DNA of 43,626 bases. Origin: Erysipelotrichaceae bacterium (GTDB lineage Bacteria; Bacillota_I; Bacilli_A; Erysipelotrichales; Erysipelotrichaceae). Below are positions 2,142 to 18,835 of the stretch, in pieces. The notes under the pieces are model-generated. The model saw nothing but the letters and a program-made list of their open reading frames with translations. It did not search any database and was not told the origin of the DNA. Positions within the stretch are counted from its first letter, which is position 1, and the number at the start of each line of letters is the position of its first letter. The position numbers and the translations under genes are program-made. The stretch covers positions 1 through 43,626 of the forward strand of contig SVBJ01000015.1 of NCBI GenBank assembly GCA_015058955.1, read 5' to 3'.

Positions 2142-2149
2142 CCGATCTC

Positions 2150-2941
2150 TCACTCAAAAAAGCGGTATATTCTCTTCTTATAGTCAGGTGCCATATCAAA
2201 GGCAGCATGACCATAGCCATTATATACAAACATTTCTGCCTCCAGAAGACATTCTTTCAGTTCCTTATGTGCCTCACTTCCCAGTACGGCATCATCCCTG
2301 GCGCCCAGGATCAGTACCGGACAGTCAATGTTTTTTATTTCTTCCCTGATATCCAGTCCGTTCATTGACTTGGCCATGATCACAAAGCGGGACAGCTCTT
2401 CAGCCGTAACACTCTGACCGGCCTGAACCATCATGTCCTTAAAACTCTCAAAGGCAGCCTTCGGATAGATCTTTTCCCCGAAGTCCAGATAAAGGGCAAC
2501 CGCATCGCCTTTTTCAGCCAGGTTTATCCAGCTGCCCACCGTCTTTTCCATGAACTTATTTACACGGCAGGCTGCTGAACCGACAGCGATCATGCTGACT
2601 AGTTCAGGATGACGGGCTCCAATCAGTAAGCTCATTATTCCTCCCTGGGAAGCACCGAAAAGATTGATGTTTTCCAGTCCCAGCTGCTTGATGGCCAGGG
2701 CCGTATCATCAGCCATCTGATATATGCTGTAGCCTTCAGAAAGCTCATTACGGCGGTCAAAGACATAGACGGTATATTCACCCTTAAAGATGTCATAGGC
2801 CTGTGCAATGGCCTGGGCTGAAGCCATGACGCTTTGTACGCTTAATCCCGGCAGTATTACCATTGTTTTTTTACCCTGCCCGAAGCAGAAGTAATTCATG
2901 GAATATTCCGGTAGTTTTACTGTCTTTATTTCATAACTCAT
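2150..2941 (-). CDS. Alpha/beta hydrolase, 263 aa
   Basis: Compact alpha/beta hydrolase. The nucleophile elbow is GASQGG with Ser98, the acid is Asp216 or Asp217 in GARDDAV, and His245 in YGHAAF completes the triad. The oxyanion region is LPGLSV near residue 30. There is no signal peptide, so it should be cytoplasmic; the substrate is unknown. ATG at 2941 is chosen because AAAGGTG lies six bases upstream; GTG 2950 and ATG 2947 are in frame but overlap this site. It is the first gene of a three-gene operon, and its stop overlaps an in-frame GTG of the DUF218 ORF. Confidence 0.85.
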   Translation of the reverse strand: MSYEIKTVKLPEYSMNYFCFGQGKKTMVILPGLSVQSVMASAQAIAQAYDIFKGEYTVYVFDRRNELSEGYSIYQMADDTALAIKQLGLENINLFGASQGGIMSLLIGARHPELVSMIAVGSAACRVNKFMEKTVGSWINLAEKGDAVALYLDFGEKIYPKAAFESFKDMMVQAGQSVTAEELSRFVIMAKSMNGLDIREEIKNIDCPVLILGARDDAVLGSEAHKELKECLLEAEMFVYNGYGHAAFDMAPDYKKRIYRFFE

Positions 2942-3053
2942 ATCCATCACCTTTAATGTCTGTCCGAACCATTTATCCGCAATTGTCGGCTTTTTTCTAC
3001 TAATAATATTTTAATACATTCAGTTCGCTTGTCCATCGTCCAGCCATGTCAAA

Positions 3054-3073
3054 GTCCCGCTTTTCAGCGGGAC
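3054..3073 (-). terminator. Hairpin after the S33-type hydrolase gene
   Basis: GTCCCGC (3054-3060) pairs with GCGGGAC (3067-3073) around a six-base loop. On the minus strand it is followed only by TTTG, so it is a weak intrinsic terminator for the gene at 3094-4053. Confidence 0.55.
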
Positions 3074-3093
3074 CTGTCGTTTATAGGGTTTGC

Positions 3094-4053
3094 CTATTCT
3101 TCGTCGCTGTCGTAATACAGCCGATCAAAGACGATGTCATCGAAGAATTCAATGATTCCTTCATTGACAGTGTCCTTGAGTTCCATGTAGTTATGGATCT
3201 CATGACGGTAACCGCTGTAGAGCTTGGTCTTGACATCATGTCCGGTGTCCATCAGCCAGTTAGTGCACTGATATACGCCTGTGCCATACTGTCCGACCGG
3301 GTCCTGGTCGCCGGCAATATTATAAATCGGCAGACCAACAGGAACCTTCTTAGCCCATTCAATACCGGTAATATCCTTCATCATCTGGTTGAAGTACAGC
3401 CAGGCACGGTTGCTGGTCGGCTTGGTAAAGGCATCAAACGGGTCAGCAGCGTGGTCTTTCTGAACATACTCATCATCACAGATCCACTCATTGCCCAGCT
3501 TTACGCCTTCACTGCAGCGGGCAAACATCCAGCCCATGAATTTAGCACCCAGGGTAGGATCGGACTCTTCACCCTTGCCCTCATCAACCATCTTCTGTAA
3601 TAAGTCAATGTTTTCATCCAGACCAGGCCATACGCCAGTCGTACCGCAGATCGTTGCCCCATCCAGATCCTCACCGAATCTGGCCATGTACATTCTGGTA
3701 ATGAAGGAACCCATGCTGTGGCCGAACATGAAATACGGCAGACCAGGATACATGTCAGCTACCAGATCATGCAGTTTCTTTTCATCATAGACCATGGTCT
3801 CAAAGCCCTTGTCGCCCCAGTCGCCCCATCTGTCGTTTTCCACAGCTGTCTTGCCGTGTCCGACATGGTCATCAGCGGCTACGATGTATCCGGCTTCCAC
3901 CAGCCGGGTGATCATGTAGAGATAACGGCGTGAATGCTCACCGAAACCGTGAATCAGCTGAATGATTCCCAGAGGTTCTGAAGCAGGAACATAGACCCAT
4001 CCGTAAACCGTGTCGCGCTCATTAAAAGACGTGAATTTTACTTCATGTAACAT
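3094..4053 (-). CDS. Lysophospholipase/monoacylglycerol lipase-like hydrolase (S33 family fold)
   Basis: A 319-residue alpha/beta hydrolase of the Hydrolase_4 (serine aminopeptidase S33/PldB-like) type. It shows the HGFGEHSRRY oxyanion motif (residues 35-44), DHVGHGKT at 62-69, and the nucleophile motif GHSMG with Ser113. GDQDP in the C-terminal third supplies the acid and GYRHEIHN the histidine. Family members hydrolyse monoacylglycerols or lysophospholipids; the substrate here is not shown. The start is supported by AAAGGA upstream of the ATG. A 12-base palindrome (4071-4082) lies in the leader. The gene sits between two other hydrolases on the same strand. Confidence 0.88.
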   Translation of the reverse strand: MLHEVKFTSFNERDTVYGWVYVPASEPLGIIQLIHGFGEHSRRYLYMITRLVEAGYIVAADDHVGHGKTAVENDRWGDWGDKGFETMVYDEKKLHDLVADMYPGLPYFMFGHSMGSFITRMYMARFGEDLDGATICGTTGVWPGLDENIDLLQKMVDEGKGEESDPTLGAKFMGWMFARCSEGVKLGNEWICDDEYVQKDHAADPFDAFTKPTSNRAWLYFNQMMKDITGIEWAKKVPVGLPIYNIAGDQDPVGQYGTGVYQCTNWLMDTGHDVKTKLYSGYRHEIHNYMELKDTVNEGIIEFFDDIVFDRLYYDSDEE

Positions 4054-6031: not shown

Positions 6032-7159
6032 ATGCAAAACAAGTTTTTCCCTGAAATTCACAACAAGTTCGGCTTCGGCTGCATGAGACTGCCGGTCGAT
6101 GAAAACAAGAACGTCATCATGGAAAAGGTCTGCGAAATGTTTGACCTTTACCTGGAAAGAGGCTTCAACTACTTCGATACCGCTCATGGCTATCTCTCTG
6201 AACAAAGCGAAATCGCCGTCAGAGAATGTCTTACCAAGAGATATCAAAGAGACCGTTACATCCTGACCAACAAGCTTTCCGGACAGTATTTCAATACGGA
6301 AGCGGACATCCGTCCGTTGTTTGAAAAGCAATTGGAAGCCTGCGGTGTCGATTACTTTGACTTCTATCTGATGCATGCCCAGAGTTCTTCAAACTATCAG
6401 CACTATAAGGACTGCCGTGCGTATGAAACAGCCTTTGAACTTAAGAAGGAAGGCAAGATCAGACACGTGGGCATTTCCTTCCATGACACTGCTGAAATGC
6501 TCGACAGGATCCTGACCGACTATCCGGAAATTGGAGCCGTTCAGATCCAGTTCAACTATCTGGACTTTGACAGTCCGACCACCCAGTCCAAAGCCTGCTA
6601 TGACGTGCTGATCAAGCACAATAAGCCGGTCATCGTCATGGAACCGGTCAAGGGCGGGACCCTGGTAAATCTGCCTGATGAAGCCAGAAAGGTCCTTGAT
6701 GATCTTCACGGCGGTTCCCCGGCTTCATATGCCATCAGATTTGTTGCCGGCTTTGACCAGATCATGATGGTATTAAGCGGCATGGGCTCCCTGGAAATGG
6801 TTGATGACAACACTTCCTACATGCGGGATTTCCAGCCTCTTAATAAAGAAGAACAGGAAGCCATCAATAAGGTCGTTGACATTTACAAAGGCATGAACGC
6901 CATTCCATGCACTGCCTGCCGCTATTGTACGGATGGCTGTCCGATGGGCATCAGGATCCCTGACATCTTTGCCGCCTATAACAACCGCAAGCTCTTCCAT
7001 GACTGGAACGCCGCCGGTTTCTACAGGACCTTCACCAAAGACAGTTCTCCGGCTGACTGCATCCAGTGCGGTCAGTGTGAAGGCATCTGCCCGCAGCAGC
7101 TCAACATCATTGAACTGATCCAGCAGGTCCGGGAAGAATTCGAAAAACCAGCCCATTAA
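6032..7159 (+). CDS. Aldo/keto reductase with two C-terminal 4Fe-4S motifs
   Basis: The N-terminal ~280 residues are an aldo/keto reductase TIM barrel with tetrad candidates Asp49 and Tyr54 (FDTAHGY), Lys81 and His115. The C-terminus carries two complete CxxCxxCxxxCP motifs, Cys293-296-299-303 and Cys343-346-349-353, each able to hold a 4Fe-4S cluster. This fits the ferredoxin-domain AKR family common in anaerobes, where the barrel is presumably linked to iron-sulfur electron transfer; the physiological substrate is unknown. Length (375 aa) is normal for the family. It is monocistronic, divergent from the esterase gene and followed by a palindromic terminator. Confidence 0.92.
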   Translation: MQNKFFPEIHNKFGFGCMRLPVDENKNVIMEKVCEMFDLYLERGFNYFDTAHGYLSEQSEIAVRECLTKRYQRDRYILTNKLSGQYFNTEADIRPLFEKQLEACGVDYFDFYLMHAQSSSNYQHYKDCRAYETAFELKKEGKIRHVGISFHDTAEMLDRILTDYPEIGAVQIQFNYLDFDSPTTQSKACYDVLIKHNKPVIVMEPVKGGTLVNLPDEARKVLDDLHGGSPASYAIRFVAGFDQIMMVLSGMGSLEMVDDNTSYMRDFQPLNKEEQEAINKVVDIYKGMNAIPCTACRYCTDGCPMGIRIPDIFAAYNNRKLFHDWNAAGFYRTFTKDSSPADCIQCGQCEGICPQQLNIIELIQQVREEFEKPAH

Positions 7160-7166
7160 ACAGATG

Positions 7167-7188
7167 AAGCGATGCATGCATCGCTTTT
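7167..7188 (+). terminator. Palindromic terminator after the aldo/keto reductase
   Basis: AAGCGATG (7167-7174) and CATCGCTT (7179-7186) form an eight-base stem with a CATG loop, followed by TTTT. Confidence 0.7.
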
Positions 7189-7198
7189 AATATGGCAA

Positions 7199-7222
7199 AG
7201 AAAAACTCAGCTGCTGCTGAGT
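7199..7222 (-). terminator. Intrinsic terminator of the PAP2 gene
   Basis: ACTCAGC (7205-7211) pairs with GCTGAGT (7216-7222). On the minus strand the stem is followed by TTTTT and begins directly after the stop codon. Confidence 0.75.
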
Positions 7223-7894
7223 CTACTTACGTACTGTCTTTTTCTTTGGCTTGATGAAATCCAGCACTATGCGGAAGGCATATAGCAAGGTGGCACTGAT
7301 CAGAATGCTGGCGATGATGTCGGTGAACCAGTGGACACCGGACAGCAGTCTTCCGACTACCATTACGGCTGCCAGAACATACATGACGATAGTAAAGATC
7401 TTTCTGATGTTGGCATCCTTGAGATATCGGTTTCCAACCCATGGAGCACTGCAGAATACCGTCAGGGCCAGCATTGTGTGTGATGACGGGAAGCTGGCTT
7501 CCGGATCAGTCTCACCCGGCATGATCACCGGACGGCAATTGATCTCTGCCTTTTCAAAAATGACGTAAAGCAGAATTACCACCACATACAGGCATCCCAG
7601 GGCAACGATGTTTCTGTCAACCTTCTTCAAGCCCTTGCCTGCCCATAACTGCAGGGCACCGATGCCGGCAAAGCACAGACATAACAGGATAGCCAGATAG
7701 CCTAACAGATTGGTAATGACATACCAGAACTTGCTGAACTTGAAGATGTCACGGAAGAAACCGTTGATGTGAGACATTCCGACGACTGTAGCCTTTGGTC
7801 CGATCGGAGCCTTGTCCACAAAGCATACCAGTAATGACACTATGATTGTCAAGCCTGCCAGAATACCGAGTTTTATAAGTCTGTCTTTTTTCAT
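7223..7894 (-). CDS. PAP2-family membrane phosphatase
   Basis: A 223-residue membrane protein with an N-terminal signal-anchor-like helix and about five or six membrane segments. PAP2 (phosphatidic acid phosphatase type 2) motifs are visible: a slightly shortened KAEINCRP motif 1, SFPSSHT motif 2, and GRLLSGVHWFTDI motif 3, where the usual SR is GR. Such enzymes dephosphorylate lipid phosphates or undecaprenyl pyrophosphate at the membrane's outer face; which substrate applies cannot be read. ATG 7894 is chosen over 7900 because AGAGG (7904-7908) is then correctly spaced. Convergent with the aldo/keto reductase. Confidence 0.88.
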   Translation of the reverse strand: MKKDRLIKLGILAGLTIIVSLLVCFVDKAPIGPKATVVGMSHINGFFRDIFKFSKFWYVITNLLGYLAILLCLCFAGIGALQLWAGKGLKKVDRNIVALGCLYVVVILLYVIFEKAEINCRPVIMPGETDPEASFPSSHTMLALTVFCSAPWVGNRYLKDANIRKIFTIVMYVLAAVMVVGRLLSGVHWFTDIIASILISATLLYAFRIVLDFIKPKKKTVRK

Positions 7895-8002
7895 AAGCAT
7901 TTTCCTCTATTAAATTTTATTATACTATCTTTTTCACAATGTGATTAGTTAATATGCACTTTTTATCGCCCCGTAAATCTTTCCTCCCGCTGATTTTCCC
8001 TA

Positions 8003-8035
8003 TATAATAAGGATAGCAGATATACATCTGCAGTG
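8003..8035 (+). promoter_or_regulatory. Promoter -10 and dyad operator of the partner-switching operon
   Basis: A TATAAT at 8003-8008 has no good -35 partner (TTTCCT at 7980-7985 at best). Directly downstream, GCAGAT (8016-8021) and ATCTGC (8026-8031) form a perfect dyad with a four-base spacer, at or just after the expected transcription start. A second stem, CAGTG (8031-8035) with CACTG (8048-8052), precedes the ribosome site. The dyad could be a repressor site or a leader hairpin. Confidence 0.5.
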
Positions 8036-8067
8036 GTTTTTATGATGCACTGACAGGAGGCTAACTT

Positions 8068-8364
8068 ATGATAATAGAAAAACAGGTAACAGATTCAGCC
8101 ATGACCATCAAGGTCATCGGACGCCTGGATTCAGTAACCTCTCCGCAGCTGGAAGAAGTTACCAGCAAGGAACTGGAAGGGATCACTGATCTGACCTTTG
8201 ACTTTTCCGAACTGGAATATATCTCTTCTGCCGGCTTAAGAGTAATTCTGATTTCCCAGAAGACCATGAACAATCAGGGAAAGATGCGCGTAACCGGCAT
8301 CAATCAGGAAGTCAGAGACATTTTTGAAGTTACCGGGTTTGTGGATATCATTGATGTTGAATAA
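8068..8364 (+). CDS. STAS-domain protein (anti-sigma factor antagonist-like)
   Basis: A stand-alone 98-residue STAS domain of the SpoIIAA/RsbV type. The phospho-site motif is YISSAGLR, with Ser54 in the position of the serine phosphorylated in RsbV/SpoIIAA; DFSELEY precedes it and a VTGFVDII helix follows. In known systems the unphosphorylated STAS protein binds the HATPase kinase and frees that kinase's partner. Here the probable kinase/phosphatase is encoded two genes downstream, with no sigma factor nearby. CAGGAGG precedes the ATG. It is the first gene of a five-gene operon; the next begins 16 bases after its stop. Confidence 0.93.
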   Translation: MIIEKQVTDSAMTIKVIGRLDSVTSPQLEEVTSKELEGITDLTFDFSELEYISSAGLRVILISQKTMNNQGKMRVTGINQEVRDIFEVTGFVDIIDVE

Positions 8365-8380
8365 TTGGGGGGATTTTAAA

Positions 8381-9472
8381 ATGAAGTTTGAAAAGGAAAT
8401 CATTGAAGGCGTACAGGTGATAAAACCGTACGGACGCATCGACAGCAATACCTCACACGAGTTTGAGGAAATACTGAACCGGGAAATAGAACCGGGCCGT
8501 GACGTGGAGATCGACTTCCGTGAAGCCGTCTATATTTCTTCATCAGGATTACGTTGTCTGCTGGGTTTAAGAAAGCGTCTTGGTGACGATGCCAGCATCG
8601 TTTTCACTCATGTCAATGATGTCATCATGGATGTCTTTGAAATGACCGGCTTTACCGATCTATTTGAAGTAGTCAGGATGGACATGAACAATCCTGACAC
8701 CAGAGTCATCTTCTTCGACATTGACGGTACCCTTCTGTCACATAAATCCGGAAGCGTTCCGGAAAGCACCGTCCGTGCCATTAAGAAGCTGCAGGCCAGA
8801 GGAATCAAGGCAGTCATCGCCACCGGCCGTGACCTGGTTGAAATGGAAAAGCTCCCATTACAGGGCATAAAGTTTGACGGTTACCTGACTCTTAACGGCA
8901 ACATCTGTCTGGATGAAAACAAGAAGATGTTCGCCGGCAATGAAATAGCTCCTGACGAAGTGGAAGTACTGGTCAACATCTTCAAGGCCGGCCGCATTCC
9001 ATTCGTTCTGATCGGTGAAAAGCAGAGATACATAAACTACGTTGACGATGTCGTCATTCAGACCCAGATGTCAACACACGGCACCATTCCTGACATCGGG
9101 GAATACCATGGTGAAAAGATCTACCAGTGCCTGGCCTTCGTCAACAAGGAGATCAGACAGAAGCTGGATGACCTTTTGGACAAGTGCGTCATTACCAGCT
9201 GGAATGATACCGGCATTGACATCATCGCCAAGACCGGCGGCAAGGATGCCGGAATTCAGAAGTTCCTTGACAGAGAACATATCACCAGAAGCCAGACCAT
9301 GGCCTTCGGTGACGGGGAAAATGACATGGCAATGCTGCGCTTTGCCGGAATCGGCGTAGCCATGGGCAACGGCAGCGACCTGCTGAAGCGGAAGGCAGAC
9401 TATGTCACGGCATCAGTTGATGACGACGGCATTGAAAAAGCCCTGTTGCACTTCGGATTAATTGAAGAATAA
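8381..9472 (+). CDS. STAS domain fused to a Cof-type HAD phosphatase
   Basis: Residues 1-100 form a STAS domain with YISSSGLR and candidate phospho-serine Ser54. From about residue 106 a complete Cof/YidA-type HAD hydrolase follows: motif I FFDIDGT (Asp113, Asp115), motif II IATGR (Thr148), motif III lysine near Lys288 in GGKDAG, and motif IV GDGEND (Asp311, Asp315), with the C2 cap between. All catalytic residues are present. HAD proteins of this group dephosphorylate sugar phosphates or cofactors. The STAS part would let phosphorylation state or partner binding control the enzyme. GGGGGGA before ATG 8381 fixes the start; an in-frame upstream start at 8324 overlaps the previous gene and lacks a site. 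Confidence 0.92.
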   Translation: MKFEKEIIEGVQVIKPYGRIDSNTSHEFEEILNREIEPGRDVEIDFREAVYISSSGLRCLLGLRKRLGDDASIVFTHVNDVIMDVFEMTGFTDLFEVVRMDMNNPDTRVIFFDIDGTLLSHKSGSVPESTVRAIKKLQARGIKAVIATGRDLVEMEKLPLQGIKFDGYLTLNGNICLDENKKMFAGNEIAPDEVEVLVNIFKAGRIPFVLIGEKQRYINYVDDVVIQTQMSTHGTIPDIGEYHGEKIYQCLAFVNKEIRQKLDDLLDKCVITSWNDTGIDIIAKTGGKDAGIQKFLDREHITRSQTMAFGDGENDMAMLRFAGIGVAMGNGSDLLKRKADYVTASVDDDGIEKALLHFGLIEE

Positions 9473-11613
9473 TGTCTGTACTTATGACAATTGAGAACAT
9501 AACTGATAAGGTAAATAACCAAAAAAAGAAAAAATCACTGAGCACGAAGATGTTCACCATCATTCTGCTCTTTTCGCTTGTTTTAAGTGTTGCCGCCATT
9601 CTATTCGGCTTCAATCTGTATTCCACGGCGGTCTATAACCAGTACGCAGGAATTGCCAATAACATTTCCAGGACATCAGCTATTGTCATTACCGAACAGG
9701 ATGCCCTGCACTACTGGAAAGATGTCTATAACATTTACAGGATCACTCCTGAAGAAGTGCACCAGACCAAGGGCAGTCAAACTTACCGTCTGCTGTATTC
9801 ACCGGTAATTGACCGCAATCTGGTCAACATGCAGATAATGCTCTCCAAGATTGCCAAGGAAAACAAGCTGATGAAGATCGGTCTGACGATCTTTGACAAA
9901 GAATCACGCCGACTGATAAACGTTTACAGTTCCGACCGCAGTGAGCCTGTCGGTAACTGGTATCCTGCGGCCAGCCGCCGCAGCAGTAACATCATCATAC
10001 ACCGCCAGGCTGAAACGCAGTGGGACACTGATCTGCCTTACATGCTGGTCAGGGATGATAATGGTTACTACTGTACCAGCTGGACCAGGGTTGCCGAGGA
10101 TGAAGATACCATTGTCATGGTCATGACAGATGTTGACATGTACATGGTTGACGACGATGCCAAAGCCTTCCTGGTACAGTTCGTGCTGTTGCTGGCAACT
10201 CTGACACTGGGAGTATTTCTAATCATCAGCCGCCGTCTGAAGAAAAAGGTCGTTCAGCCGATTGAGGACATGAACCAGGCCGCCAAGAACTACATTGCCG
10301 ACAAGGCCGACGGTCTGCCGGATTCCTATCACTTCCAGAAGCTTGAGATCCACACCAACGATGAGATCGAAAGTCTGGCTGATACCTTTGCCGACATGGA
10401 AAAGCAGATCAGTGAATACCTTAATAACCTGACCAGAGCCGCTACGGAAAAGGAAAGAATCAGATCCGAACTGAATCTGGCGGCTCAGATCCAGCGCAGT
10501 TCCCTGCCTTCCGTCTTCCCGCCATACCCTGACATCAGAGAATTTGACATCTATGCCAGCGTTGACCCTGCCAAGGAAGTCGGCGGTGACTTCTATGACT
10601 TCTTCCTGATCGATGATGATCATCTGGCCATGGTCGTAGCAGATGTCTCCGGCAAAGGAATTCCGGCCGCTCTGTTCATGATGGCCTGCAAGATCGTCAT
10701 CAATGACCTGGCAACCTTAGGCATTACTGACCCGGCGGAGATACTTTACAAGGTCAATAACCGCATAGTCAAAAACAATACCCTGGACATGTTTGTCACT
10801 GTCTGGCTGGGTATTCTGCAGATCTCAACAGGAAAGATCCTGGCGGCTAATGGCGGTCATGAATATCCTTGCCTGATGCGAGCCGGAAAGAAATTTGAAA
10901 TGATCAAGGACAGACACGGTCTGGTATTGGGCGGCATGGAAAACGTTAATTACTACACCTATGAGATCCAGATGAACCCGGGTGATGTCCTGTTTACCTA
11001 CAGTGACGGTGTTCCTGAATCTACCAATACATCCAACCAGCTGTTCGGCAACGACAGAATGCTGAATTCACTTAACAATGACACGGCTGCTTCCGTCAGA
11101 CAGCTGACACTCAATGTCAAGAAAGACATTGATGCCTTTGTCCAGGAAGCTCCGCAGTTCGATGACATAACAATGCTGGCATTACGCTACAATGGAGGCG
11201 ATAATATGAATGAAATGACAGTTGAAGCCATAATCGACAACATACCGGCAGTAACCGCATTCGTGGATGAAAAGCTGGAGGCTCTGAACTGCCCGATGAG
11301 AGCAGAGACCCAGATCGATGTTGCCATTGATGAACTCTTCAGCAACATTGCCAAATATGCCTATCATCCGGATACCGGACCGGCAACAGTAAGGGTGGAA
11401 GTTGAAAATGATCCGCTGGCTGTTGTCATCACTTTCATTGATAACGGCATTCCTTATGATCCGCTCTCTCATAACGATCCTGACACTACCCTTTCTGCAG
11501 AAGCCCGAAGCATCGGCGGACTGGGAATCTACCTGGTCAAGAAGACCATGGACGATATCACTTATGAGTACAAGAACGGACAGAACATTCTCAGAATAAA
11601 GAAAGAGATTTAA
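9472..11613 (+). CDS. Membrane receptor with SpoIIE/PP2C phosphatase and RsbW-like kinase domains
   Basis: A 713-residue sensor protein. TM1 (about 28-46) and TM2 (about 234-252) enclose a ~185-residue extracytoplasmic sensor region. A HAMP-like segment (253-310) and a linker helix follow. The SpoIIE-type PP2C phosphatase domain spans about 340-570, with metal ligands in GGDFYD (371-376), Asp391 in VADVSGKG, Asp512 in SDGVPE and DDIT (564-567). The last ~135 residues are a HATPase_c_2 kinase domain with N-box ELFSN (Glu621, Asn625), DNG (657-659) and GGLGIYLVK (682-690). It should both phosphorylate and dephosphorylate STAS partners. The start codon overlaps the previous stop as TAATG. Dual-domain precedents are SypE and HsbR. 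Confidence 0.93.
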   Translation: MSVLMTIENITDKVNNQKKKKSLSTKMFTIILLFSLVLSVAAILFGFNLYSTAVYNQYAGIANNISRTSAIVITEQDALHYWKDVYNIYRITPEEVHQTKGSQTYRLLYSPVIDRNLVNMQIMLSKIAKENKLMKIGLTIFDKESRRLINVYSSDRSEPVGNWYPAASRRSSNIIIHRQAETQWDTDLPYMLVRDDNGYYCTSWTRVAEDEDTIVMVMTDVDMYMVDDDAKAFLVQFVLLLATLTLGVFLIISRRLKKKVVQPIEDMNQAAKNYIADKADGLPDSYHFQKLEIHTNDEIESLADTFADMEKQISEYLNNLTRAATEKERIRSELNLAAQIQRSSLPSVFPPYPDIREFDIYASVDPAKEVGGDFYDFFLIDDDHLAMVVADVSGKGIPAALFMMACKIVINDLATLGITDPAEILYKVNNRIVKNNTLDMFVTVWLGILQISTGKILAANGGHEYPCLMRAGKKFEMIKDRHGLVLGGMENVNYYTYEIQMNPGDVLFTYSDGVPESTNTSNQLFGNDRMLNSLNNDTAASVRQLTLNVKKDIDAFVQEAPQFDDITMLALRYNGGDNMNEMTVEAIIDNIPAVTAFVDEKLEALNCPMRAETQIDVAIDELFSNIAKYAYHPDTGPATVRVEVENDPLAVVITFIDNGIPYDPLSHNDPDTTLSAEARSIGGLGIYLVKKTMDDITYEYKNGQNILRIKKEI

Positions 11614-11615
11614 TT

Positions 11616-12200
11616 ATGGATCAGAGTTTATTTAATGAAGCACTGCTGTTTGCGCTTAAAGCCCATGATGGGGTAACCCGCAAGAACAGCACCAATCCTT
11701 TCATTCTCCATCCCATGGAAGTAGCTACGATCGTCGCCTCAATGACGGAGAACATCGAAGTAGTGATTGCTGCCCTGCTGCATGACACTGTTGAAGATGC
11801 CGGGGTAAGCCTGGAAGAAATTGCGGATAAATTCGGAGTCAAGGTTACCATGCTGGTACAGTCCGAGACTGAAGACAAGAGAAGAGACATTCTGCCGGAA
11901 GATTCCTGGTACATCCGCAAGGAAGAATCACTGAATGTGTTAAGGACCACCAGGGATCCGGAAGTAAAAATCCTCTGGCTGGCTGACAAGCTGTCCAACA
12001 TCCGCTCATTCTACCGCATGCATGCCGTCAAAGGTGATGACATGTGGCTGGATTTCCATCAGAGAGATCCGAAAATGCAGCAATGGTATTACCGCAAGGT
12101 TGCCGCTTACACCGCTGAACTGGCTGATACCGCAGCCTATCATGAATATTGTTTCTTGTTAGAAAGACTTTTCAAGGAGTTACCAAATGGCACTGATTAA
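11616..12200 (+). CDS. HD-domain (p)ppGpp hydrolase-like protein
   Basis: A 194-residue stand-alone HD hydrolase resembling the hydrolase half of RelA/SpoT. The motif order matches: AHDGVTRKN and the metal histidine His32 in LHPMEVA, LLHDTVEDAG with His56-Asp57 and Glu60-Asp61, and Asp124 in LADKLSNIR. No synthetase, TGS or ACT domain is present, so it belongs with small alarmone hydrolases (MESH1-like). Pyrophosphate removal from (p)ppGpp is the family expectation; another nucleotide is possible. It starts two bases after the receptor gene and its last 14 bases overlap the STAS-kinase gene, pointing to translational coupling. Confidence 0.85.
   Translation: MDQSLFNEALLFALKAHDGVTRKNSTNPFILHPMEVATIVASMTENIEVVIAALLHDTVEDAGVSLEEIADKFGVKVTMLVQSETEDKRRDILPEDSWYIRKEESLNVLRTTRDPEVKILWLADKLSNIRSFYRMHAVKGDDMWLDFHQRDPKMQQWYYRKVAAYTAELADTAAYHEYCFLLERLFKELPNGTD
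12174..12179 (+). promoter_or_regulatory. RBS inside the HD gene for the STAS-APH gene
   Basis: AAGGAG lies seven bases before ATG 12187, inside the coding sequence of the HD protein. It fixes the start of the downstream gene and the 14-base overlap. Confidence 0.8.
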
Positions 12201-13368
12201 TGTAAAAAATGAAAACGGCCTGTTAACCATCGGCTTAACTGGACACATTGATTCCAATAATGCACCTGCAGTTGAACAGGAGATCACAGATGCCCGCGAG
12301 GCAAACGAATTTGAAAATGTCGTCGTTGACTGCAGTGACCTGGAGTACATTTCCAGTGCCGGCTTACGTATCATCCTGCGACTGAAGAAGCTGTATCCTG
12401 ATCTTAAGGTCATCAATGTCTCCAGTGAAGTATATGAGATCTTTGACATTACCGGATTTACCGAAATGATGGAAGTCCGCAAGGCCTACAGACAGCTGTC
12501 GGTTGAAGGCTGTGAGATCATTGGTCAGGGTGCCAACGGCAAGGTATACCGCATTGATCCGGATACCGTTTTGAAGGTCTATCATGACGTCAATGCCCTG
12601 GACGACATTAAGAGAGAAAGAGAACTGGCCAGAACTGCCCTGATCTTAGGCATTCCAACAGCCATTCCATATGATGTCGTCAAGGTTGGTGATGTTTTCG
12701 GCTCAGTCTTTGAACTTATCAATGCTGAAACCTTTGCCAAGCTGATTCAGAATGACCATGCTTCTCTTGATGATGTAGTCCGCATGTCTGTTGATCTGCT
12801 CAAGACGATCCACTCTACCGAAGTCAAGCCTGGCAGCATGCCTGACATGAAGACCGTTGTCAAAAACTGGGCAGCCTTCCTGAGTGAATATCTGGAACAG
12901 GAAGACTATCAGAAACTGCATGATCTGGTCGATGCCGTACCTGATGATCTGCACATGATCCATGGTGACTATCACCTCAAAAACATCATGCTGCAGAACA
13001 ATGAACCTCTGCTGATCGACATGGATACCCTGTGTCACGGCCATCCGGTATTTGAGTTCGCTTCAATCTTCAATGCCTATCAGGGCTACAGTGAAATGAA
13101 CCATGACAACATGATGGACTTCTTAGGAATTCCATACGAAATGGGTGCCGAGATCTGGAATAAGACCCTTCATTTCTACTTTGATGACAAGACTGAAGAA
13201 GAAATTCAGGACATTGCCGACAAGGCCAAACTGGTCGGTTATACCAGAATCATGAGAAGAACCATCAGAAGAAACGGCTTCAATACTGAACTAGGCCGCA
13301 GGGAAATTGAAAACGCCAAAAACCACATTCACGAACTGGTGAACAGGCTGGATTCCCTGGCTTTCTAG
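12187..13368 (+). CDS. STAS domain fused to an APH-like (aminoglycoside phosphotransferase fold) kinase
   Basis: Residues 1-98 are a STAS domain with YISSAGLR and candidate phospho-serine Ser57. Residues ~105-393 form a kinase of the APH/choline-kinase fold: glycine loop GQGANGKVY (113-121), Lys130 in VLKVY, Brenner motif HGDYHLKN (259-266, catalytic Asp261) and LLIDMD (275-280, metal Asp). All catalytic motifs are kept, so it should be active. Several kinases of this group resemble the TIGR02172 family, whose substrate is unknown; antibiotic resistance is unlikely from context. It is the last gene of the operon before a strong terminator. Confidence 0.9.
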   Translation: MALINVKNENGLLTIGLTGHIDSNNAPAVEQEITDAREANEFENVVVDCSDLEYISSAGLRIILRLKKLYPDLKVINVSSEVYEIFDITGFTEMMEVRKAYRQLSVEGCEIIGQGANGKVYRIDPDTVLKVYHDVNALDDIKRERELARTALILGIPTAIPYDVVKVGDVFGSVFELINAETFAKLIQNDHASLDDVVRMSVDLLKTIHSTEVKPGSMPDMKTVVKNWAAFLSEYLEQEDYQKLHDLVDAVPDDLHMIHGDYHLKNIMLQNNEPLLIDMDTLCHGHPVFEFASIFNAYQGYSEMNHDNMMDFLGIPYEMGAEIWNKTLHFYFDDKTEEEIQDIADKAKLVGYTRIMRRTIRRNGFNTELGRREIENAKNHIHELVNRLDSLAF

Positions 13369-13369
13369 A

Positions 13370-13402
13370 ACATAAAAAAACGCTTAACGCGTTTTTTTAT
13401 GT
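13370..13402. terminator. Strong bidirectional terminator
   Basis: A 14-base perfect stem, from ACATAAAAAAACGC (13370-13383) to its complement (13389-13402), with loop TTAAC and T7 or A7 tracts on either strand. It separates the convergent STAS-kinase and nitroreductase genes. Confidence 0.85.
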
Positions 13403-13417
13403 GCTTTGATCTGCTTA

Positions 13418-13933
13418 TCAGATTACAGATACATCCTTGTCAAAATTGATGGCATGCGGAACCTTTTCGGTATCCGGATAGCCGACAGCTATGGCAACAA
13501 AGAACTTATAGCCTTCAGGAATGCACAGTTTTTCAGCATACTCTGCCTTCTTTTCACCGTTGAGTGTTCTTTCAATGCAGCCCAGAATGACACTGCCCAA
13601 GCCCAGAGCTTTGGCTGCCAGATGAATGTTTTCAACGGCGATGCCGGCATCGACCGGGCTCCATCTGAAGGTTTCATCAGCTGACAGATAGAATGTCAGC
13701 GGAGCATTATAGAAAAATGACACCGTGGCATCAGGATTAAGATCTTTCTGTATCTCAGCCTGAACCGGATTATCCTTACCGACTACCGTGATGTGGATCT
13801 CCTGCTTATTAGTAGCGGTTGGTGCCTTCAGTCCTGCTTCTACCAGAGTTCTGCAGACTTCAGCCTCAATTGGCTGGTCAGTATACTTGCGGATCGAACT
13901 GCGGGTATTGATTACTTCCAAACAATCTTTCAT
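13418..13933 (-). CDS. Nitroreductase-family protein
   Basis: A 171-residue FMN-dependent nitroreductase fold protein. The N-terminal motif NTRSSIRKYTD binds the FMN phosphate in this family, followed by LKAPTATNKQ; the middle DAGIAVENIHLAAKALGLGSV helix and C-terminal FVAIAVGYPD strand are typical. It reduces an unknown NAD(P)H-dependent acceptor. The family often dimerises around two FMN molecules. A TATAAT at 13959-13964 on the minus strand is a likely -10 box. It shares the terminator with the convergent STAS operon. Confidence 0.9.
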   Translation of the reverse strand: MKDCLEVINTRSSIRKYTDQPIEAEVCRTLVEAGLKAPTATNKQEIHITVVGKDNPVQAEIQKDLNPDATVSFFYNAPLTFYLSADETFRWSPVDAGIAVENIHLAAKALGLGSVILGCIERTLNGEKKAEYAEKLCIPEGYKFFVAIAVGYPDTEKVPHAINFDKDVSVI

Positions 13934-14001: not shown

Positions 14002-14337
14002 CTAGAGAATCGCAATCAGAGCCATCAGCATCCTTCTGGGAATATGACCATCGATTCGATAAAGCCAGCGACCATTAGCAGAATTAATGCGGTCCCCGTC
14101 AATTCGGTAAACCCAGCGTCCGTTTGCATCAGTTACATAATCACCATCGAGTCTGTACAGCCAGCGGCCATTGGCATAATTAATGCGGTCTCCGTCAATT
14201 CTGTATTCCCATCTGCCGCTGCGGTCACAGACATAATCACCATCCAGCCTGTACAGCCAGCTGCCGTTTGCGCTGTTAATTCGATCTCCGTCAATCTGGA
14301 ATACCCAGCGCCCGTTTGCATCAGTCACATAAACCAT
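14002..14337 (-). CDS. Six-fold 16-residue repeat protein, beta-flower-like
   Basis: A 111-residue protein made almost entirely of six exact 16-residue units (residues 5-100). Trp recurs at 11, 27, 43, 59, 75 and 91; Gly at 9, 25, 41, 57, 73 and 89; Asp-Gly at 16-17, 32-33 and every 16 thereafter. The consensus is x-x-A-N-G-R-W-x-Y-R-x-D-G-D-x-x. Units alternate between two forms, giving three 32-residue super-repeats. There is no signal peptide. The pattern resembles the small beta-flower fold described from predicted structures, with each unit a beta-hairpin; that match is from memory. The last 11 residues (RRMLMALIAIL) are hydrophobic and outside the repeat. GAGGTG precedes the ATG. Function unknown. 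Confidence 0.85.
   Translation of the reverse strand: MVYVTDANGRWVFQIDGDRINSANGSWLYRLDGDYVCDRSGRWEYRIDGDRINYANGRWLYRLDGDYVTDANGRWVYRIDGDRINSANGRWLYRIDGHIPRRMLMALIAIL
14038..14325 (-). repeat. Coding tandem repeat, three 96-bp (six 48-bp) units
   Basis: The DNA of the repeat protein consists of 288 bases, in 48-base units that pair into 96-base super-repeats. Odd units resemble one another more than their neighbours, suggesting growth by duplication of a two-unit block. Confidence 0.85.
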
Positions 14338-15517: not shown

Positions 15518-18500
15518 TTACTTCTTTGTCTCTGCCGGTATCTGGCTGGCAGCAACCGGCTTGACACTGGCAACCGGCTGATTGGCGATCTTGATGCCAT
15601 TGCGCTGGAAGATCTGCAGCAATGACTTGTTGAGATATCTGTTGATGCCGCGGACATCCTTTTCCGAACATCTGGCTATGACGGTAACAGTGTAGCGTCT
15701 CTCAGCCAGTTCGGAAACACCCAGACTGGTTGGTCCGTCCAGGATCTGTCCGTTGTCTTCCTTAAGCAGCGGCAGTTCGCGGTTCAGTACTTCCTCAACG
15801 ATATCGATATCCTGTCCATACTCCAGACCGATCGTGGCAGAAGCGACAGAAGTTTCCTTGGTCATGTTAAGTACTCCGGAGATCTCACTGTTGTTGAAGA
15901 TCTTGACGTTGCCGCCTCCGGAGATCTTGGTCGTTCTTAAGCCGATATCGGTAACCGTACCGCGGAATCCGTTAATTGTAACAATGTCGCCGACACGGAA
16001 TTCACCTTCAAAAACGATGAAGATACCGGCGATGATATCCTTGATCAGACTCTGAGCACCCAAGCCTATGACCAGAGACAGGATTCCGGCACTGGCCAGC
16101 AGATTAGGTGAATCGACTCCAAATAAATACAGACAGTAGAACAGAGCACCGATCGTTCCGCCGTATTTGACAATTGACAGTAACAGATGGCCGATCGTCT
16201 CACCCCGGGTTCCCAGCAGTGAAGTACACAGACGGACCGGGATCCTGAACAGTTCAATGGCAATCAGGGTCATTAAGATGACCATGATGGCAGCGCTCAG
16301 GGCAAACAGGTTAGGACTTCTGTCCCATCCTCTGGACAGAATGTAATTGACGATGGAATCATTGGAAGTTCTGTTGATTCCGACAGCTGACAGTACAAAG
16401 TACAGCACCGGGATGGCAATGATCCATCCCAGAATGGATACAAGCTTCATTTCCGGTGAACGCTCATTCCAAGGAATGCGTTGATTATTCCAGCGGATCT
16501 GGGCCATTGTCGTACTGGCAAAGCGGCCTGACGGCAGGATTATGCTGAAAATCGATGAATTCAGATTATCATCGCCTTTCACATCACTGATCAGATCATA
16601 GACTTCATCATTGACGGTGGAAGTAATCGTAACCGACAGTAACAGCAGTGCAATCATGAACAGACATACACCTGCTGTGATCAGAGAAATTGAGCCGCGG
16701 CTGGTATACATGCTTGCCTGCGGTAAGGCTGTAGCGATGAAATATTTATCGATGAAACGGAATACCTGGAAATATGATACGCCGTTTATCCTGTTGAATC
16801 CGTAATAAACATCTCCGGTAAAGGCCTTTGATGATACCCCAAGCTCAGCAGCGGTTTTTCCGATGCTGGCCTTTACCGGAGAATACACACAGGTGTGTTC
16901 CGGAGTATTGTCAAACATGATCATGGAGCCTCCTGACAGCATTTCCGTTGACAGGATGGCATCGGCATTGGTGTCAGCCATAATCGAGCTGACCAGTTCG
17001 CTGTCCAGAGCTATCTGCAGCATAGATCTGTGTCTGGTAATGTTGCCGGCCTTGGTAACGTTGCTGACACCTTCCCGGGCACAGGCTTCTTCATAGGCAT
17101 ATCTGGAAACATAGACGGTTTCGCCATTGGCAGCCTTGGTGGTAAAGTAATGCATTGAGATGCCGAAATACTGGGAATTTACCCCAAGATCATCGGTCAT
17201 GGCTGTCTGCAGATAACTGTCAGTTTTTCCTTCCAGTACCCGGCGGAACGGATATGAATGATCATCAGGGTTCTGACTCAGAGAAAAGAACCAGTTGCCT
17301 GTATTGGTCGCAATCGTATGACCGTCTTCATCGAAGATGTAAATTGCCTCAATGCGGTTTTCATCACAAAGCTGCTGCAGTATTGCGGAATTGGCTACAG
17401 ATTTCAAACGGTTGCCCTCATCATCGATCAGGAACTGTCTGTTGCCTTTGTCATCGTAAATGCTGTGATAGAATTCTGAACCGGTATTAAGAACTTCCGG
17501 GCTTTCCTCCGCGAAGAAGGACAGAAGCTTGGCGGTTGAAATGAACCGGGATTTATAGTAATCTTCAATGACTTCACGGCTTTCAATGCTTTCTTCATAA
17601 CGGCCGATTACTTCCTGCAGGATGACGTTGGACTTGTCAATTCCTTCGGTTATTTCCAGAAGAGTCTGAGTATAGAAAGTAATGGCATATACCACAATGA
17701 TGCCTATCATCATTAACGGCATTACCTTTTTAAAGACTGATTTGTTGAAATACATTGGTTTTTCCGGATCGCTGCTCAGCATGATCTTTTCCGGCTTGAT
17801 GTTATTGCGGATAAAGTCATTTCTGACAAATACGGCATAAAGCAGGCACAGCGTCATTACGATAATGAATCCCATAACTGACCATAACAGAACGTACTTG
17901 TCACGGGAACCCATGGTCTTTGATCTGGCAGCAGCCACGATCACGGTATCGTCACCAAACGCCCTGGAAGTACAGTAGTACTTCTCCCCGAGAATGGTCT
18001 GAACACCCCGGTATCCGTCGGTCATGATGTCCTGGTTAAGTCCGGTATTATAGGCATTCTGTCCTGTCAGCAGGTCAGTGCCGTTTTTATAGTACATGAA
18101 CAGGTCATCTGTTCTGTTAACCGCAAACAGGAAGCCGTCATTGATGACAGACATACGGCTTAATACTGCGGACACATCTTTCAGAGAAGCGATGCGCTCG
18201 TCCAGAGCCCAGGAACTGGTCCCCATCGCCAGAACATACTGGCTGTCACCATAGAAATACGGCATTGCATAATAATAGTAGGTTCCATAAATGTTCTTTA
18301 CCAGAACCGGCTCGGAATTGTGACTCATTTTCAGCATCCGGTTAAGGTTATCCTGCGTCACAAAAGCAGTTGTGGCCAGGTTACGGCCGAACAGTTCTTC
18401 ATTGGAAGTTACCACAACATTGCCATTTTCATCCAGCAGAAACAGATTTGATATTCCTGCCGGTGAAGAGAGTTCGGTAAACATCTCGGCACGAACATTG

Positions 18501-18835
18501 TTTTCGTTGGCCATCATTTTTTCAAAAAGGCCTTTTTTAAACAGCAGTTCTATGTCATCCATGGTATTCCAGTTTCCCTGGTGGAAGATATTGGTCAGGC
18601 TTTCGGAGTTTTCGGTATTTTTGTCCAGAATGGAAACCACTTCTGTCAGAGCCAGGTTGTTATTCTCCTGCTGCTTGATTATTGAAGTCTTTGACTGAAC
18701 ATTGCTGAGGAAAGCATATATTGCAATTGCACCGAAAAGCATCATCACCATGTTTGCGATGATGTTGGCCGTAACGATCCTCTCGTTTCTGGTCAATTTC
18801 TGATTTTCCATGATTTCTGTCTGATTGTTATCCAT
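15518..18835 (-). CDS. MscS-family channel with two extracytoplasmic sensor regions
   Basis: A very long MscS-type protein (1105 aa; E. coli MscS has 286). TM1 (~23-44) and TM2 (~313-336) enclose a ~270-residue Cache-like sensor region. TM3 (~370-388) and TM4 (~716-737) enclose a second ~325-residue one. Then come a short cytoplasmic linker, TMs at ~797-819, 842-866 and 881-907, and the pore helix and beta domain: LLASAGILSLVIGLGAQSL (912-930), VFEGEFRVGD (941-950) and INGFRGTVTDIGLRTTK (954-970). The C-terminal cytoplasmic alpha/beta domain is present. It could release solutes when membrane tension or an extracellular ligand changes. It begins the operon with the binding lipoprotein. Sensor domain names are inferred from topology. 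Confidence 0.88.
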   Translation of the reverse strand: MDNNQTEIMENQKLTRNERIVTANIIANMVMMLFGAIAIYAFLSNVQSKTSIIKQQENNNLALTEVVSILDKNTENSESLTNIFHQGNWNTMDDIELLFKKGLFEKMMANENNVRAEMFTELSSPAGISNLFLLDENGNVVVTSNEELFGRNLATTAFVTQDNLNRMLKMSHNSEPVLVKNIYGTYYYYAMPYFYGDSQYVLAMGTSSWALDERIASLKDVSAVLSRMSVINDGFLFAVNRTDDLFMYYKNGTDLLTGQNAYNTGLNQDIMTDGYRGVQTILGEKYYCTSRAFGDDTVIVAAARSKTMGSRDKYVLLWSVMGFIIVMTLCLLYAVFVRNDFIRNNIKPEKIMLSSDPEKPMYFNKSVFKKVMPLMMIGIIVVYAITFYTQTLLEITEGIDKSNVILQEVIGRYEESIESREVIEDYYKSRFISTAKLLSFFAEESPEVLNTGSEFYHSIYDDKGNRQFLIDDEGNRLKSVANSAILQQLCDENRIEAIYIFDEDGHTIATNTGNWFFSLSQNPDDHSYPFRRVLEGKTDSYLQTAMTDDLGVNSQYFGISMHYFTTKAANGETVYVSRYAYEEACAREGVSNVTKAGNITRHRSMLQIALDSELVSSIMADTNADAILSTEMLSGGSMIMFDNTPEHTCVYSPVKASIGKTAAELGVSSKAFTGDVYYGFNRINGVSYFQVFRFIDKYFIATALPQASMYTSRGSISLITAGVCLFMIALLLLSVTITSTVNDEVYDLISDVKGDDNLNSSIFSIILPSGRFASTTMAQIRWNNQRIPWNERSPEMKLVSILGWIIAIPVLYFVLSAVGINRTSNDSIVNYILSRGWDRSPNLFALSAAIMVILMTLIAIELFRIPVRLCTSLLGTRGETIGHLLLSIVKYGGTIGALFYCLYLFGVDSPNLLASAGILSLVIGLGAQSLIKDIIAGIFIVFEGEFRVGDIVTINGFRGTVTDIGLRTTKISGGGNVKIFNNSEISGVLNMTKETSVASATIGLEYGQDIDIVEEVLNRELPLLKEDNGQILDGPTSLGVSELAERRYTVTVIARCSEKDVRGINRYLNKSLLQIFQRNGIKIANQPVASVKPVAASQIPAETKK

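Follow-up and report, generated by a model that had tools for sequence, protein, structure and literature searches.

Partner switches are conventionally presented as devices for sigma-factor control, and the locus described here raises the question of what such a switch acts on when its phosphatase, kinase and STAS domains are encoded together with enzymes. The window is the whole stretch of DNA analysed, 43,626 nucleotides of contig SVBJ01000015.1 from an Erysipelotrichaceae bacterium, in which five + strand genes (STAS, STAS-HAD, receptor, HD and STAS-APH) form one tight operon, with the genes flanking it on either side lying on the opposite strand. The operon probably encodes a partner switch controlled by a membrane receptor, the outputs of which would be enzymes instead of a sigma factor.

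The operon and its proteins

The operon comprises the following features.

8068..8364, + strand: stand-alone STAS protein, RsbV/SpoIIAA-like, 98 aa, with a YISSAG loop (Pfam PF01740, 2.4e-16; TIGR00377, 70 bits, over cut-off)
8381..9472, + strand: STAS-HAD, 363 aa, a STAS domain with a Cof-type HAD phosphatase (PF01740, 9e-14; Hydrolase_3, 1e-53; TIGR00099 over cut-off)
9472..11613, + strand: membrane receptor, 713 aa, with SpoIIE (PF07228, 3e-44) and HATPase_c_2 (PF13581, 1.3e-19) in the same protein
11616..12200, + strand: stand-alone HD hydrolase of the RelA/SpoT-MESH1 type, 194 aa (HD_4, 2.9e-19)
12187..13368, + strand: STAS-APH, 393 aa, a STAS domain with a kinase of the APH/choline-kinase fold (PF01740, 2e-15; APH, 3e-18)
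13370..13402, + strand: terminator-like hairpin followed by T's at the operon end (pattern scan, consensus match only)

The genes are separated, in operon order, by a gap of 16, an overlap of 1, a gap of 2 and an overlap of 14 bases. The number of terminator-like hairpins in the whole region was not above the shuffled expectation, and neither were the matches of the promoter scan. The operon as such is more than a chance arrangement, since many genera share this block.

The receptor consists of N-terminal helices flanking an extracellular segment, a coil, a SpoIIE/PP2C domain (residues 381–573) and an HATPase_c_2 domain (residues 589–711), and was modelled with a pLDDT of 83 and a pTM of 0.46. 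The PP2C metal ligands Asp373, Asp391, Asp512 and Asp564/Asp565 are intact, as are the kinase motifs, namely the N-box with Glu621 and Asn625 and the GGLG motif; Asp373, Asp391, Asp512 and Asp564, as well as Glu621, Asn625, Gly682, Gly683 and Gly685 of the kinase domain, are invariant across 20 receptors. The nearest solved structures are those of Rv1364c, which is the best match by both Foldseek and sequence, and SiaA-PP2C. For the sensor region no Pfam sensor family was matched, and the list of fold matches was taken up by PP2C structures.

The three STAS domains of the operon are the only ones in the genome, and each has a serine where SpoIIAA is phosphorylated, as expected of partner-switch substrates. 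The putative phosphoserines are Ser54 in the stand-alone STAS protein, Ser54 in STAS-HAD and Ser57 in STAS-APH, the last of which aligns in sequence with the serine that follows Asp in the D-S-S-G loop of SpoIIAA. In both fusion proteins the catalytic motifs are intact in the sequence and in alignments: FFDIDGTLL and GDGEND in STAS-HAD, and HGDYHLKN and IDMD in STAS-APH, in which His259, Asp261, Asn266 and Asp278, representing HxDxxxxN and the downstream Asp of the APH/choline-kinase fold, are invariant. The HD..ED motif of the hydrolase is likewise intact, and residues Arg22, His32, His56, Asp57, Glu60, Asp61, Asp124 and Asn128, which we take to correspond to the active-site residues of Rel, are invariant in 27 sequences. 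Judged by these conserved residues the protein belongs to the Rel/SpoT-MESH1 HD hydrolase family, and its PDB matches are Lmo0812, MESH1 and Rel.

A sequence-only reading of this DNA had described the same five genes, in an order and with spacings that agree exactly with the ORF coordinates, and its domain assignments were matched by Pfam in all five proteins; the single receptor that combines a phosphatase with a kinase domain, the STAS domains fused to enzymes with complete catalytic motifs, and the absence of a sigma factor and of a separate RsbW from the operon were all borne out.

Conservation and coupling of the STAS-bearing enzymes

STAS-APH is present in 12 of 147 relatives and was found in 580 public-genome stretches from Clostridia, Erysipelotrichaceae and Treponema. 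In 73 of 91 loci STAS-APH either has an RsbW-type kinase domain no more than 6 kb away or is fused to one, with direct fusion in 23 loci; Pfam confirmed STAS, APH and HATPase_c_2 in a single chain. In the other 18 loci, some on short contigs, the kinase domain was not seen in the available flank. A PP2C phosphatase is found near STAS-APH in 52 loci and a stand-alone STAS protein in 48. The HD hydrolase adjoins STAS-APH in 35 of the 91 loci and a PHP phosphoesterase does so in 16 others, and the two never occur together in the 80 loci with enough flank (p 3e-4). Because 14 of the 16 PHP loci group in a single clade of 28 rows in the STAS-APH tree, this exclusivity partly reflects kinship. In Treponema, HD is fused to the PP2C phosphatase.

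The full five-gene set is not what is conserved, since STAS-HAD is found inside the operon only in the window genome. Its only full-length relatives (in genomes G005 and G023) are unlinked to the operon. STAS-HAD is confined to genomes with STAS-APH (three of three versus 12 of 147; p 4e-4, a statistic that ignores kinship). The conserved synteny that the sequence-only reading had proposed as a test was recovered in many genera for STAS, the receptor, often HD, and STAS-APH, with the kinase domain fused in the 23 loci mentioned above. The conserved core is STAS, phosphatase/kinase and STAS-APH, often with a hydrolase, and STAS-HAD is a local addition to the operon.

Within STAS-APH, the site loop (residues 54–61) shows a mean identity of 98%, and the linker from the STAS domain to the kinase domain (residues 99–107) shows 71%, compared with 57% for the STAS domain and 63% for the kinase domain. 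Coupling between the two domains would lead one to expect a linker better conserved than either of them. This bears on the reading in which the STAS domains of the two fusion proteins, STAS-APH and STAS-HAD, are there for docking only, in a stressosome-like assembly or in membrane recruitment, so that phosphorylation would relocate the enzymes with catalysis unchanged. STAS domains are known to act as assembly modules, the membrane receptor could act as an anchor and the conserved site loop fits either way; however, the highly conserved linker leads into the Gly-rich loop of the kinase domain, which favours intramolecular coupling over a loose tether, and we regard docking alone as rather unlikely.

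Absence of a σB/σF-type sigma factor

No sigma-like ORF was found in the window, and the operon contains no separate RsbW/SpoIIAB anti-sigma kinase. In the 1.78 Mb genome, which is approximately 95% complete, six proteins contain sigma region 2, and Sigma70_r3 was matched in a single RpoD-like protein (452 aa frame); no cognate sigma factor that carries regions 2, 3 and 4, as in the RsbU/RsbV/RsbW or SpoIIAA/SpoIIAB systems, was found. Partner-switched sigma factors such as SigB and SigF contain region 3. As there is no STAS domain beyond the operon and region 3 occurs in RpoD alone, a σB/σF-type output is absent from this genome. Neither does the gene content correspond to a stressosome with an RsbR/RsbS core and a separate RsbT, since the genome lacks additional STAS domains and the operon lacks a small, separate HATPase kinase.

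A sigma switch in trans, in which the receptor HATPase domain would sequester an ECF-type or SigH-like sigma factor encoded elsewhere, with STAS as the anti-anti-sigma factor and the fused enzymes as secondary outputs or scaffolds, could draw on the six region 2 proteins and on the classical role of RsbW-type domains as anti-sigma factors. Region 3 in RpoD alone, the fusion of the kinase domain to STAS-APH in 23 loci and its position within a membrane protein here argue against it, as do the 91 loci, none of which has an adjacent sigma gene (the nearest being three and five genes away in two loci), and we consider such a switch distinctly unlikely.

The proposal that the STAS domains share the receptor as their controller stands in so far as the operon encodes both kinase and phosphatase. 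However, a second sensor-type PP2C phosphatase is encoded elsewhere in the genome, and the other HATPase_c_2 matches are a MATE fusion (L035) and two weaker ones in 485 and 488 aa frames. Since the second PP2C and the MATE-HATPase fusion have no other STAS targets in the genome, the receptor may not be the sole controller. HATPase-bearing neighbours of 580–590 aa, considered as histidine kinases, were found to be MATE-HATPase_c_2 fusions.

Proposed switch and comparison with known systems

In the enzyme-directed partner switch that we prefer, the receptor HATPase domain would phosphorylate the YISSAG/YISSSG-loop serine of the free STAS protein, STAS-APH and STAS-HAD, and the PP2C domain would dephosphorylate the same serines, with an extracellular signal tilting the balance between the two. 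Competition for the kinase domain between the free STAS protein and the STAS domains carried by the enzymes is probable, and phosphorylation would set whether the kinase domain holds or releases STAS-APH, and hence its activity. The HD hydrolase, made together with STAS-APH, most likely serves the same small-molecule pathway. That the APH-fold domain instead works as a protein kinase, or as a regulatory pseudo-enzyme, on STAS or the receptor, in a closed signalling loop without metabolic output, is highly improbable: some APH-fold kinases do phosphorylate proteins, and in one case (L106) there is a second STAS-APH without HxDxxxxN, but small-molecule kinases dominate the fold matches, the switch already contains a Ser kinase domain and coupling to an HD or PHP hydrolase better suits a small-molecule substrate.

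Going further, we suggest only tentatively, as a rather unlikely extension, that the transmembrane switch directly sets a small-molecule phosphorylation cycle, in which STAS-APH would add phosphate to a metabolite or nucleotide and HD or PHP would remove that phosphate or a related one. Through Ser phosphorylation of STAS, an external signal would in this way fix how much of a phosphorylated small molecule is present, with neither transcription nor c-di-GMP involved, and the MATE-HATPase fusion would add transport as another output. Such a cycle could represent a new alarmone- or nucleotide-linked pathway. The HD hydrolase resembles MESH1 and the small alarmone hydrolases in its active-site residues and matches, whereas here it is the operon partner of a STAS-APH kinase.

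Wiring of a partner switch to an enzyme is not unprecedented, and the contrast drawn earlier with the classical systems overstated the novelty, since enzyme-directed switches (SiaABCD, HsbRAD and the Moorella stressosome) and dual kinase/phosphatases (SypE and HsbR) are already known. In Pseudomonas aeruginosa SiaABCD, phosphorylation of the STAS-like SiaC controls the diguanylate cyclase SiaD (PMC7647112, PMC8457831); this system likewise combines a membrane PP2C phosphatase, a Ser/Thr kinase, a STAS-like protein and an enzyme output without a sigma factor, but the SiaB kinase and SiaC are separate and the output is c-di-GMP, whereas in the window the phosphatase and kinase are fused and STAS is part of the output enzyme. 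In the HptB-HsbR-HsbA-HsbD system of P. aeruginosa, a single protein, HsbR, both phosphorylates and dephosphorylates the STAS protein HsbA, which when phosphorylated binds the diguanylate cyclase HsbD (PMC5085249). The dual activity and the enzyme target are shared; however, HsbR is driven by a phosphorelay whereas the window receptor has its own membrane sensor, and HsbA, which is not fused to an enzyme, has the anti-sigma factor FlgM as a further target. Vibrio fischeri SypE is a dual Ser kinase/phosphatase for one STAS protein, SypA, at Ser56 (PMC8256260), with a target that is not known to be a sigma factor but without an enzyme fusion. The Moorella thermoacetica stressosome, as cited in PMC4976288, controls a diguanylate cyclase and is also a STAS-based module moved from sigma control to an enzyme; it differs in its RsbR/RsbS/RsbT scaffold and its c-di-GMP output, neither of which the window has. 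Rv1364c from Mycobacterium tuberculosis (PDB entry 3ke6) joins an RsbU-type and an RsbW-type domain in tandem within one polypeptide, as in the window receptor, which differs in having a membrane sensor and no STAS domain. The Rv1364c chain also includes a STAS domain, and the protein is linked to SigF.

What looks new is an enzyme with a metabolite-kinase fold that bears its own STAS substrate, in a quarter of loci in one chain with its own kinase; the known enzyme-directed switches use a separate STAS protein and mostly target diguanylate cyclases. Literature searches returned no description of STAS fused to a phosphotransferase, HATPase or MATE. The STAS-APH family, which is widespread, mainly among Treponema and uncultured Firmicutes of the gut and rumen, offers a direct test case for metabolic control via STAS Ser phosphorylation.

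Several assignments were considered and rejected. The substrate could not be read from the fold, as the STAS-APH model (pLDDT 93.6, pTM 0.79) matches APH, choline, aminopropanol and methylthioribose kinases within approximately 2 Z units (VIA matches include 3dxq, Z 17.1, r.m.s.d. 4.5, 257 residues, and 3w0s, Z 16.6, r.m.s.d. 3.8, 253 residues). An aminoglycoside-resistance enzyme was dismissed on the best curated model, APH(6)-I, at 21.7 bits versus a cut-off of 325, and anti-phage defence on a weak best PADLOC match (E 0.004, 13–14 bits). A choline pathway had been suspected from a recurring 291 aa neighbour with the length of a LicB-like transporter, which is in fact the PHP phosphoesterase. 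The PHP neighbours are nucleoside-bisphosphate-phosphatase-like.

Operon and host genome

The five open reading frames that the sequence-only reading had taken for a partner-switching operon with enzymes, and not a sigma factor, as outputs were all borne out, with their domains, strand, gaps and overlaps, by ORF calls and by Pfam and NCBIfam profile searches. The operon and its surroundings are as follows.

7223–7900, strand opposite to the operon: PAP2 phosphatase, flank
8068–8364, + strand: STAS protein
8381–9472, + strand: STAS-HAD, STAS with a Cof-type HAD phosphatase
9472–11613, + strand: membrane receptor with SpoIIE/PP2C phosphatase and RsbW-type HATPase_c_2 kinase domains
11616–12200, + strand: HD hydrolase of the RelA/SpoT–MESH1 type
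12187–13368, + strand: STAS-APH, STAS with an APH/choline-kinase-fold kinase
13370–13402: hairpin with T's directly after the operon (pattern scan)
13418–13933, strand opposite to the operon: nitroreductase, flank
14002–14337, − strand: short repeat-built protein (YRIDGD-type) with weak matches to beta-flower and LOR
15518–18835, − strand: 1105 aa protein with a C-terminal MscS-type channel domain, its long N-terminal part matching no Pfam family (in a relative, locus L045, an MscS-domain gene at 6520–7350 is also close to the operon)

Purine-rich, ribosome-binding-like stretches precede the first gene (AGGAGG) and the last gene (AAGGAG). As read from the sequence, the putative phospho-acceptor serines are Ser54 of STAS, Ser54 of STAS-HAD and Ser57 of STAS-APH, and their SpoIIAA counterpart in the alignment is the Ser after Asp in the D-S-S-G loop.

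The window genome (1.78 Mb, 95% complete, 4.5% contamination) contains exactly three STAS domains by genome profile search, every one in this operon. Sigma region 2 is matched in six places, one under the curated cut-off, and region 3 in a single RpoD-like protein; no σB/σF-type factor was found by the region 3 search of this 95% complete genome. HATPase_c_2 matches comprise the receptor, a MATE fusion and two weaker ones in frames of 485 and 488 aa. Since a RelA/SpoT-sized frame of 747 aa with a strong HD_4 match exists elsewhere, the operon's HD protein (194 aa) is a stand-alone hydrolase encoded in addition to it. Besides the receptor there are two SpoIIE-domain proteins: one of 391 aa, adjoining a cysteine-rich protein, and a PP2C phosphatase of 670 aa with a sensor-like N-terminal region and no kinase domain (1480–3492 of L156, contig C13). 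Because the genome encodes no STAS protein outside the operon, the latter is a plausible second input to the circuit.

Synteny and distribution of STAS-APH

STAS-APH was found in 12 of 147 relatives, in 18 of 395 genomes of a separate even draw of the class and in 580 confirmed stretches of a public genome collection, 80 of which were fetched. The hosts are Lachnospiraceae, Oscillospiraceae, other Clostridia, Erysipelotrichaceae, Christensenella and Treponema/Spirochaetes. Almost all of these genomes are metagenome-assembled, with ruminant and other gut samples as a frequent source. The usual order in relatives is STAS, PP2C–HATPase receptor, with or without HD, and STAS-APH. Among the 91 best-scoring loci, which are not a random sample and give lower bounds because many contigs are short, a kinase domain is fused to STAS-APH or lies within 6 kb in 73, PP2C lies within 6 kb in 52 and a stand-alone STAS in 48, and all three are present in 32. 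In the closest relative (G003; STAS-APH 89% identical) the contig stops within the receptor gene, which limits the comparison with it, for STAS-HAD too, to the genes from the receptor onwards.

An HD hydrolase lies within 300 bp of STAS-APH on the same strand at 35 of the 91 loci (median distance an 8-base overlap, with nominal starts) and a PHP phosphoesterase at 16; the two never occur together (0/91), and a search of some 0.84 Mb of flank gave no HD or PHP gene of the STAS-APH-linked families at distances above 3 kb. The best NCBIfam matches, both below cut-off, are RelA/SpoT for HD and 3′,5′-nucleoside bisphosphate phosphatase for PHP. Both RelA/SpoT-type HD and PHP families include enzymes acting at nucleotide 3′-phosphates. 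The repeated pairing of STAS-APH with either hydrolase suggests a hypothetical cycle of small-molecule phosphorylation and dephosphorylation.

Full-length STAS-HAD was found only in the window genome, G005 and G023. The latter two also carry the STAS-APH operon, with STAS-HAD alone on another contig, and its position inside the operon is thus a local feature of the window genome. As STAS-HAD genomes carry STAS-APH in three of three cases versus 12 of 147 overall (p = 4e-4, ignoring kinship), the HAD enzyme is probably part of this circuit too.

Several neighbourhoods vary. At L047 (G026; 9618–10187 and 10177–11268) the receptor is shrunk to its kinase domain (76% identical), whose gene overlaps that of an Mbeg1-like hydrolase, with STAS-APH downstream. 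A DUF218 membrane-type protein adjoins STAS-APH at eight loci, mostly at +1 (L079:11190–12380, L070:11200–12462 and six more), and the PHP phosphoesterase adjoins STAS-APH or STAS-APH–HATPase at L081:11947–12822, L092:2358–3236 and 14 more. L106 has tandem STAS-APH genes (816–2015 and 2063–3250), the second of which lacks the HxDxxxxN catalytic motif and may be a pseudokinase partner.

Structure models and proposed mechanism

In the predicted STAS-APH model (pLDDT 93.6, pTM 0.79), the C-terminal domain matches the small-molecule kinase type of fold, with 3dxq of the choline/ethanolamine-kinase family (Z 17.1, rmsd 4.5, 257 residues) and APH(4)-Ia 3w0s (Z 16.6, rmsd 3.8, 253 residues) tied, so that the substrate is not readable from the fold. 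Loop 54–61 has a mean identity of 98%, and the linker after the STAS domain (99–107) is more conserved than either domain. The receptor model (pLDDT 83, pTM 0.46) shows an extracellular alpha/beta segment flanked by long helices, followed by a coil, PP2C and HATPase; the closest solved structures are Rv1364c RsbU–RsbW (3ke6) and SiaA-PP2C (6k4e).

Gene content, motif integrity, synteny, fusions and lack of a sigma partner are observed, and phosphorylation, competition and enzyme control are inferred from what analogous pairs, HsbA–HsbD and SiaC–SiaD, do. In the most likely mechanism, the receptor would set how far the STAS domains are phosphorylated, free and enzyme-borne STAS would compete for binding to the kinase domain, and STAS-APH would be governed by the state of its Ser57. 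It is already established that SiaABCD (PMC7647112), HsbRAD (PMC5085249) and the Moorella stressosome (as cited in PMC4976288) act on outputs other than sigma factors, as the proposed circuit would, and that SypE (PMC8256260) and HsbR (PMC5085249) are dual kinase/phosphatases, a type that the receptor resembles by its PP2C and HATPase domains. PP2C–kinase fusions and c-di-GMP links have been predicted in Campylobacterota (PMC9239204). No description of STAS-APH, STAS-HAD or MATE–HATPase systems was found in the open-access literature; as subscription papers and bioRxiv preprints lay outside this search, their novelty is 'not found' and short of 'shown absent'.

Domain fusions

At 23 of the 91 loci a HATPase domain is joined C-terminally to STAS-APH (confirmed by Pfam for two), so the kinase domain is physically tied to the STAS enzyme. 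In Treponema/Spirochaetes, Pfam identifies an HD_4 hydrolase fused to a SpoIIE/PP2C domain and adjoining STAS-APH. At 12 of the 91 loci a long protein with a HATPase domain is encoded no more than 8 kb from STAS-APH; all 11 run through Pfam (all but L127) are MATE proteins, ten with HATPase_c_2 over the cut-off, and the fusion is possibly a transporter under the control of a STAS protein.

SpoIIE–HD_4 fusions: L125:8605–9960; L132:8615–9979; L133:7269–9977
Long HATPase-bearing (MATE-type) loci: L070, L073, L076, L081, L085, L087, L092, L110, L115, L123, L127, L136
L035:100–1866 (window genome, contig C16): 588 aa MATE with C-terminal RsbW-type HATPase_c_2, not linked to the operon

In the L035 protein the N-box Asn appears to be lost (EEMAGVIV versus EEMAGNVI in L070).
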